This document shows, piece by piece, positions 14,573 to 15,138 of a stretch of 41,511 nt of DNA (position 1 is its first letter; every line of letters starts with the position of its first letter). This DNA is from an uncultured bacterium (GTDB taxonomy: Bacteria; Bacillota; Clostridia; Lachnospirales; Lachnospiraceae), in the NCBI GenBank assembly GCA_945949875.1, contig CAMFGH010000013.1, forward strand, positions 1-41,511, written 5' to 3'. The position numbers were made by a program, and so were the translations under genes. The notes beneath the pieces were generated by a model. That model ran no database searches. It was given only the letters and a program-made list of their open reading frames with translations, and was not told the DNA's origin.

Positions 14573-14599
14573 TTATCGGAAGATTTCCAAAAGACTTTA
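14573..14599 (-). promoter_or_regulatory. Sigma-D (sigma-28) promoter of flgM operon
   Basis: On the minus strand TAAA (14596-14599) and CCGATAA (14573-14579) are separated by 16 bases, the same geometry as the flaG promoter. The predicted start is near 14566, some 47 bases before flgM. The promoter lies just outside the large palindrome at 14629-15127. Confidence 0.85.
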
Positions 14600-14628: not shown

Positions 14629-15127
14629 TTCGGGCAGCTTTTTTTCTGCCAACTTTTCCGGCCGGCCTTCCTGACTCCCCCCGGGCCCATGGGAGGTTTT
14701 TATCAGTGGCAAAATATTTTATATCCCAGGAACTTCTTTCTTTTCGATAAAGCATATTTTTCCAAAGCTGTACACCCGGGAGATACTTGTTCTTTTTGCA
14801 TCAGACACTGTTGGCAAAAATCCGTATAAAGATTGCCACTGCAGATAAGCAAAACGTAAGCCGGCATTCCACTCGTTCAAGACGTAGTCGCGTTTGGAAT
14901 GCCGGCTTTTATCGCGGATTTGTGTTCTGCAGTGAGCAATCTTAGGATTTTTTCCTCAGTGTCTGTGTAAAAAGGAACAAGTTCTCCCGGCTGTTCATCC
15001 GCAGAAAAACATGCTATATAAAAAGAAGCTCCTGGGATATATTTTGCAAGCTGAAAAAACCTCCCATGGGCCCGGGGGGGAAGTCTGAAAATCAGCCGGA
15101 AAAGTTGGTGAAAAAAGACTGCCCGAA
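14629..15127. repeat. 499-bp imperfect palindrome (possible structured RNA)
   Basis: Nearly the whole interval between flgM and the chemoreceptor gene is one inverted repeat: two arms of about 230-250 bases that match at an estimated 70% or more with small gaps. Matching blocks in order from outside to centre include TTCGGGCAG, CCAACTTTTCCGGC, CCGGGCCCATGGGAGG, TATCCCAGGA, CTTGTTC, CAGACACTG, CACTGCAGA and GCCGGCATTCCA. The centre is at about 14883, with an 11-bp perfect tip stem (14860-14870 / 14896-14906). No credible coding region lies inside. A transcript from either strand could fold into one long rod. Confidence 0.9.
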
Positions 15128-15138
15128 GGCAGTCTTTT
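15113..15138. terminator. Terminator of the chemoreceptor gene
   Basis: A strong hairpin (AAAAGACTGCC, CGAA loop, GGCAGTCTTTT) begins 16 bases beyond the stop of the chemoreceptor gene on the minus strand and is followed there by TCTTTTTT. The symmetric A/T flanks make it potentially bidirectional. It merges with the right end of the large palindrome. Confidence 0.85.

Follow-up and report, generated by a model that had tools for sequence, protein, structure and literature searches.

Why does a long palindrome fill the space between flgM and a chemoreceptor gene in an uncultured Lachnospiraceae bacterium, and what keeps its two arms complementary? A sequence-only reading of the window (the whole stretch of 41,511 nucleotides of contig CAMFGH010000013.1 that was analyzed) had suggested a large structured RNA tied to motility, a long RNase III substrate insulating the two operons, or a mobile palindromic (MITE-like) element. 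Here, we describe the palindrome itself, its relatives in the same genome, and the ways in which its arms have changed.

The flgM interval holds a long imperfect palindrome

The palindrome is long and imperfect and lies at window positions 14629–15127, in the interval between flgM and the chemoreceptor gene. Arm alignment and the Pfam matches of the neighboring genes, FlgM (PF04316) on one side and an MCPsignal/HAMP chemoreceptor on the other, bear out the coordinates and content first reported for it. Global alignment of 14629–14884 with the reverse complement of 14885–15127 gave 203 matches at 231 aligned positions (88%, or 76% if the 37 gap columns are counted), in keeping with the earlier estimate of at least 70%. 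The alignment scored 254.5, versus 14.7 ± 10.4 (maximum 63.5) for 200 shuffles of one arm. A check by folding, as had been proposed, predicted a single rod from either strand (–286.3 and –291.9 kcal/mol; shuffle means of about –137; z = –26.1 and –21.7), and on both strands none of 100 shuffles folded as well. The three conserved blocks named beforehand do pair: CCCCCCGGGCCCATGGGAGG at 14677–14696 with 15060–15079, TATATCCCAGGA at 14720–14739 with 15022–15041, and AAGCCGGCATTCCA at 14858–14871 with 14895–14908. A perfect stem is likewise present at the tip, but it measures 14 bp rather than the 11 bp given earlier.

From the outside inwards, the left and right outer arms (14629–14676 and 15080–15127) are locus-specific by flank comparison and arm alignment: the segment common to other copies spans approximately 14680–15076, and about 48 bp at either end occur at the flgM locus alone. 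Segments B (14677–14696) and B' (15060–15079), identified by arm pairing and copy alignment, enclose a core with a beta-type arm (14697–14857) and an alpha-type arm (14909–15059), both delimited by BLASTN and copy alignment. Between the core arms lies the apex (14858–14908), made up of the 14-bp stem and a loop with the motif CG-TTCAA-[hairpin]-G-CG.

At its right end (15127), the palindrome stops within the loop of a hairpin (15111–15138, minus strand) that resembles a terminator of the chemoreceptor gene; this hairpin was read by eye, and a simple terminator scan of the region listed none. Just outside the left end, the minus strand at 14573–14599 carries what we take, from the consensus and by eye, to be a sigma-D-like promoter of flgM (TAAAGT..CCGATAA). 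A block resembling this sequence also lies upstream of flgM in congener loci. Among the open reading frames of at least 60 aa, none is wholly within the palindrome, and Rfam 15 returned no match in the window at gathering score.

The palindrome is dispersed in its own genome and absent from eight congeners

The check suggested earlier for dispersed copies, BLASTN of the flgM interval against its own genome (a fragmented assembly of 2.76 Mb in 163 contigs, 86.8% complete), gave strong matches on many contigs. The core occupies 13 contiguous places, on contigs C13 (the window), C1 (twice), C38, C7 (twice), C105, C42, C94, C95, C26, C6, and C64. Two further copies appear to run across contig breaks, one from the end of C22 to the start of C6 and the other joining the starts of C117 and C76; in both, the halves were matched by a copy-specific B segment common to the two contig ends. 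Contigs C6, C22, C76, and C117 of this assembly (G000) thus end inside palindrome copies, and further copies may therefore hide in contig breaks.

By DNA search, the palindrome was present in none of eight congeners and in none of 396 other sampled genomes of the family, although the first pass of the latter scored few candidates per genome and could miss weak relatives. A palindrome scan (score at least 120) found 10 in 394 kb of the own genome, a sample partly chosen to hold known copies, versus none in 400 kb from two congeners. A 23-base core pattern had no match in genome_contigs or viral_contigs, two apex patterns had none in viral_contigs, and the phages and plasmids searched held no match to the palindrome. 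A loose apex pattern matched in 14 of the 397 family genomes, one of them being the own genome; the 13 others compare with about 15 for a reversed control, so there is no excess. Across the genus, model R2 recovered the own genome and one weak match in G006 (E = 0.94), which looks like an ordinary terminator. The palindrome was in none of the stretches covered at the flgM loci of congeners; most of these loci have another gene upstream of flgM, and hence offer no empty site at the nucleotide level.

Given many core copies in one genome and their absence from congeners and other family genomes, the palindrome is a lineage-specific, dispersed, non-coding palindromic repeat. The scattered host copies, with none in the eight congeners, support the suggestion of a MITE-like element. 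They are also the outcome that the sequence-only reading had itself set against an RNA confined to this locus. A motility-linked RNA is rejected as the main reading since the copies adjoin many unrelated genes and the congeners lack the palindrome, which is not tied to flgM or motility; nor did we find an Rfam match at gathering score or a consistent G-U strand bias.

Copies sit at gene 3' ends. The 16 sites considered (15 core copies plus C18:23017) comprise nine convergent, six tandem, and no divergent contexts, counts that carry no genomic baseline for gene orientation; the remaining site, on C105, was left unassigned as the automatic frame choice and manual reading disagree. With element borders set by hand, nine of the ten upstream genes that read toward the element end no more than 14 bases from its border. 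On C95, the last codon and the stop of the gene are supplied by the repeat.

Copies combine a conserved apex and bulges with variable stems

Full copies follow the order A - B - core - apex - core' - B' - A' and are about 500–570 bp long. A is a terminator-like hairpin near GGGCTGTCGCTTTCACGAAT..ATTCGTGAAGTGGCAGC, adjoining T-runs, and B is a copy-specific stem. A and A' were recognized on both sides in seven of the nine copies tested; C6d and C64d had no recognizable left A. The core is an imperfect palindrome whose alpha and beta arm types are told apart by bulges that nearly all copies retain.

Several elements share only parts of this plan. C18:15088–15661 (L190:88–661) is a 574 bp palindrome with unrelated stems and the same apex loop (38.7 bits, E ~1e-7, with model R1, trained without this element). 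It is single-copy by DNA search and has the end of a gene on one side and a glycosyltransferase-like gene on the other. C51 carries a decayed half copy, and solo apex hairpins occur on C20 (E = 2.5e-5), C3 (E = 1.9e-4), and, weakly, C8 (E = 0.34). At C18:23017–23515 (L135:1495–2020), the family ends surround a tandem array of unrelated small hairpins. A second, different palindromic frame with a tandem array of small hairpins lies at L183:12173–12756 (G000 C4), and the hairpin units of both arrays read TTACTGTATACGG...CATACAGTAATCG. These two framed arrays give the impression that palindromic repeats may be modular or nested.

Other palindromes were noted in passing. An unrelated one of ~400 bp, with AACGCAGCGGATGCTAGGCTC...CGCCGGTGCTTGGCGAGG, lies near flgM in other Lachnospiraceae (L053:2748–3173 and L057:2774–3163), and a 171 bp palindrome of the own genome (L190:5189–5359) has a similar motif, CAGACGCGCT. 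One of the 13 loci that the loose apex pattern matched in other genomes of the family belongs to a different genus (L201:1406–1616; G294 C96); there, the apex loop motif CGTTCAAACGAAGTGCGTTT forms the center of a palindrome of 211 bp, which went unreported by model R1 at E up to 1 and by model R2 at E up to 10.

The mirror of each copy extends into its own flanks

In the core, the two arms of one copy were 88% identical on average (gaps uncounted), and the same arm was also 88% identical across copies (minimum 78%; 30 comparisons among six copies, one of them, C13w, with an imprecise split). As a multiple alignment could not be relied on for the outer segments, these were compared pairwise. 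Over the outermost 40 nt, the arms of one copy matched at 34/37 to 38/38 positions (89–100%) in the nine copies with a working split, versus a mean of 0.55 matches per position between copies and 0.36 ± 0.16 for shuffled sequence. No usable core/outer split was obtained automatically for C13w and C22/C6, whose outer rows were left unused; with these two failed splits included, the within-copy mean over all 11 rows was 0.79. Hairpin A scored 38.4 on average within a copy versus 21.4 between copies (1 of 20,000 permutations), and the 50 nt outside A scored 17.0 versus 12.6 (16 of 20,000). Both permutation tests kept all nine copies, including C6d and C64d, for which no left A could be recognized. 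At the flgM locus, positions 14629–14646 of the left arm are a mirror image of one half of the chemoreceptor terminator, and this mirror ends within the terminator's loop. Since A, the flanks, and the chemoreceptor terminator are mirrored copy by copy, the mirror extends into DNA that belongs to the locus itself.

Single copies record larger changes. C94 lacks the conserved TCCGTATAAAGATT/TCCTAAGATT asymmetry, and C42 has an identical version of GATGCAAAAGAACAAGTATCTCC on both arms; in each of the two, one arm has been overwritten by the other. C95, and apparently C64d, has its inner core flipped with respect to the outer core. The apex is absent from C6d, C64d, and C1d, where manual reading gave 5–7 common bases per junction.

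We consider it fairly probable that this is a REPIN/MITE-like repeat that folds as DNA, and that template switching during replication makes and maintains its mirror. When single-stranded at replication, the repeat would fold into a DNA hairpin, and the polymerase could then switch template between the arms. Such a switch might overwrite one arm with the other or invert the center, and it might also extend the mirror into flanking DNA or delete the tip. Complementarity could thereby be kept without each copy working as an RNA. Overwritten arms, inverted centers, lost tips, and published outcomes of template switching lead us to prefer this reading. Arm homogenization (C94, C42) and inversion (C95, apparently C64d) were seen between paralogous copies, and we infer upkeep by template switching from these, not from alleles of one locus. 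The earlier argument was that an inverted duplication normally decays if pairing is of no consequence; it omits arm-onto-arm copying at the DNA level, and the sequences here give direct evidence of such copying. Loss of SbcD was also considered as the cause of palindrome persistence and rejected, since SbcD is present.

Pairing changes and the case for a selected shape

Among the alternatives, the one that fares best, although we regard it as rather unlikely, is a structured RNA or a folded single-stranded DNA, with selection acting on its shape copy by copy and with the bulges and apex loop being bound by something. Bulges and apex loop are indeed kept in nearly all copies while the stems change, and C18:15088–15661 keeps the apex loop on other stems. 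Survival of the bulges also counts against template switching, as frequent arm copying should erase them. Compared with shuffled and slid controls, co-variation was strong in an alignment that had been fitted to the model. Alignment A1, which put two subfamilies out of register, was dropped in favor of A2 and A4.

For the main apex helix, 17 pairs were compared in 11 sequences, again after fitting the alignment to the model. Of its 183 cells, 29 had changes on both sides, none had a change on one side only, and none was unpaired; this helix contains no G-U, which speaks against selection on the shape. The outermost of the three apex helices has six G-U cells, a point against template switching, and five unpaired cells. 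Across 125 consensus-paired columns of the core (1118 consensus cells, with 156 cells beside gaps skipped), 70 changes were compensated, 119 were one-sided, and 21 cells were changed and unpaired. One-sided changes thus exceed compensated ones, again to the disadvantage of template switching, and upkeep in the core would be far from complete. The one-sided changes include 61 transitions with a strand split of 36/25, and rare differences were even between strands (45/50 in the core and 60/61 outside, where the alignment is poor), contrary to a selected shape. A pairwise count of arm differences leaned toward G-U on one strand (47 vs 25), in favor of a selected shape and against template switching, but this figure does not count events since it includes conserved alpha/beta differences inherited by all copies. 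On balance, the changes carry no consistent G-U signature of RNA selection.

Further observations weigh against a selected shape. Rfam searches of three copies yielded below-threshold matches, mostly to microRNA-type hairpin models (best MIR8562, 42.7 bits versus a cut-off of 211), and no family at gathering score. The mirror also continues into host flanks. Finally, with A hairpins at either end that resemble terminators facing inward and outward, transcription would be unlikely to read through into the core. For the host, the likely effect of a copy would be added termination and insulation at gene ends. The earlier suggestion of an RNase III substrate that insulates the two operons may also apply.

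Candidate mobilizers and the origin of the mirrored flanks

Dispersion, absence in congeners, and the C95 gene completed by the repeat suggest that copies have moved to new sites. Palindrome copies have inverted ends; no target-site duplication was seen by eye in the flanked copies, and mirrored flanks hide the borders. A transposase search that covered Y1_Tnp in this 87% complete genome identified no parent insertion sequence. It found an intact gene for a RAYT-like Y1 protein on C22 (L194:950–2235) and Y1 matches near the ends of C63 and C78. Copies of another repeat, GGGGACGTTTCTTTTGTCC, flank the C22 gene (score, 79 of 84); gene and repeats are probably a separate RAYT/REP family. The palindrome L180:824–1056 (G000 C3) carries the same GGGGACGTTTCTTTTGTCC repeat. 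At none of the three Y1 loci did A, apex, or core ends score outside the range of 80 control pieces. Together with the other repeat at the C22 gene, these control-level scores leave RAYT unsupported as the mobilizer.

We think it improbable that the inverted flanks are themselves the product of insertion, rather than of later template switching, as would be the case for a non-autonomous transposable element whose folded strand copies the neighboring strand as it inserts. Flank mirroring that varies by locus and reaches past A would suit such an element, as would dispersed insertion sites beside stop codons; the repeat and scores at the Y1 loci would not, nor would the differing degree of decay among the mirrored flanks. 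With little confidence, we also entertain a wider class of mobile hairpins with a conserved apex (CG-TTCAA-[short hairpin]-G-CG), conserved bulges, and free stems, in which a putative enzyme would move folded single strands and copy the neighboring strand at each insertion. Were this true, mirrored arms would be part of the transposition mechanism itself, and the L201 palindrome in another genus would be a distant member.

The A hairpin also occurs alone. A half-A pattern (up to three mismatches) had 36 matches in the own genome versus one for a reversed control. In congeners, it was close to control except in G006 (16 vs 5) and, mildly, G002 (7 vs 3). Manual reading gave ~14 solo A hairpins, 12 read directly and two deduced from both-strand matches. 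Solo A hairpins at gene ends would fit insertion of the core into pre-existing inverted repeats, the outer stems being long terminators that predate it. This is very improbable: the solo hairpins are only ~45 bp and lack B, the 400 kb from two congeners contained no palindrome of score 120 or more, and A and A' have copy-specific sequence in common. Inverted chimeras from assembly or amplification are most improbable: the assembly is fragmented and several contigs end inside copies, but conserved bulges and ~12% arm substitutions recur at many loci, and chimeras would yield near-identical arms and no family.

Relation to known repeats and mechanisms

About fifteen paralogous copies in one genome, at different sites and in different states, make palindrome growth, arm copying, center inversion, and tip loss comparable. 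Such a collection lets one ask, in a natural setting, whether DNA template switching rather than RNA selection can produce clean co-variation, a question that matters for inferring structured RNAs from co-variation. The literature on REP/REPIN, MITE, inverted repeats, and template switching, covered mostly as titles and abstracts and with subscription journals largely outside its scope, yielded no description of this repeat.

ERIC/RU-1, YPAL/RU-2, Correia, and RUP repeats are about 100–170 bp long and fairly uniform in sequence, unlike the copy-specific arms of ~250 bp each found here. What they have in common with the palindrome is that they are small non-coding dispersed repeats able to form long hairpins (PMC2229807).

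Template switching is reported to homogenize arms and invert spacers of short repeats in yeast coding DNA (PMC8604942), and to create or repair stems of RNA genes in a single step (PMC8794818). Such quasipalindrome mutation predicts homogenized arms, inverted spacers, and stems made or mended at one stroke. Unlike these published cases, the switching that we propose concerns repeats of ~500 bp at many loci of one bacterium, and template switching is a mechanism, not a family.

The palindrome also resembles REPINs (PMC3116915), dispersed extragenic repeats with inverted conserved ends around a hairpin-forming spacer, whose stems vary with compensatory changes and whose end hairpins also occur singly. 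Co-varying stems thus have a precedent among dispersed hairpins (PMC3116915). REPINs, roughly 100 bp long, span ~71 bp between end motifs (PMC3116915), whereas full copies here reach about 500–570 bp, have a bulged core, and mirror their host flanks; moreover, no RAYT gene adjoins the family ends in this 87% complete genome. It is in size, bulged core, and mirrored host flanks that the palindrome differs from known repeats.
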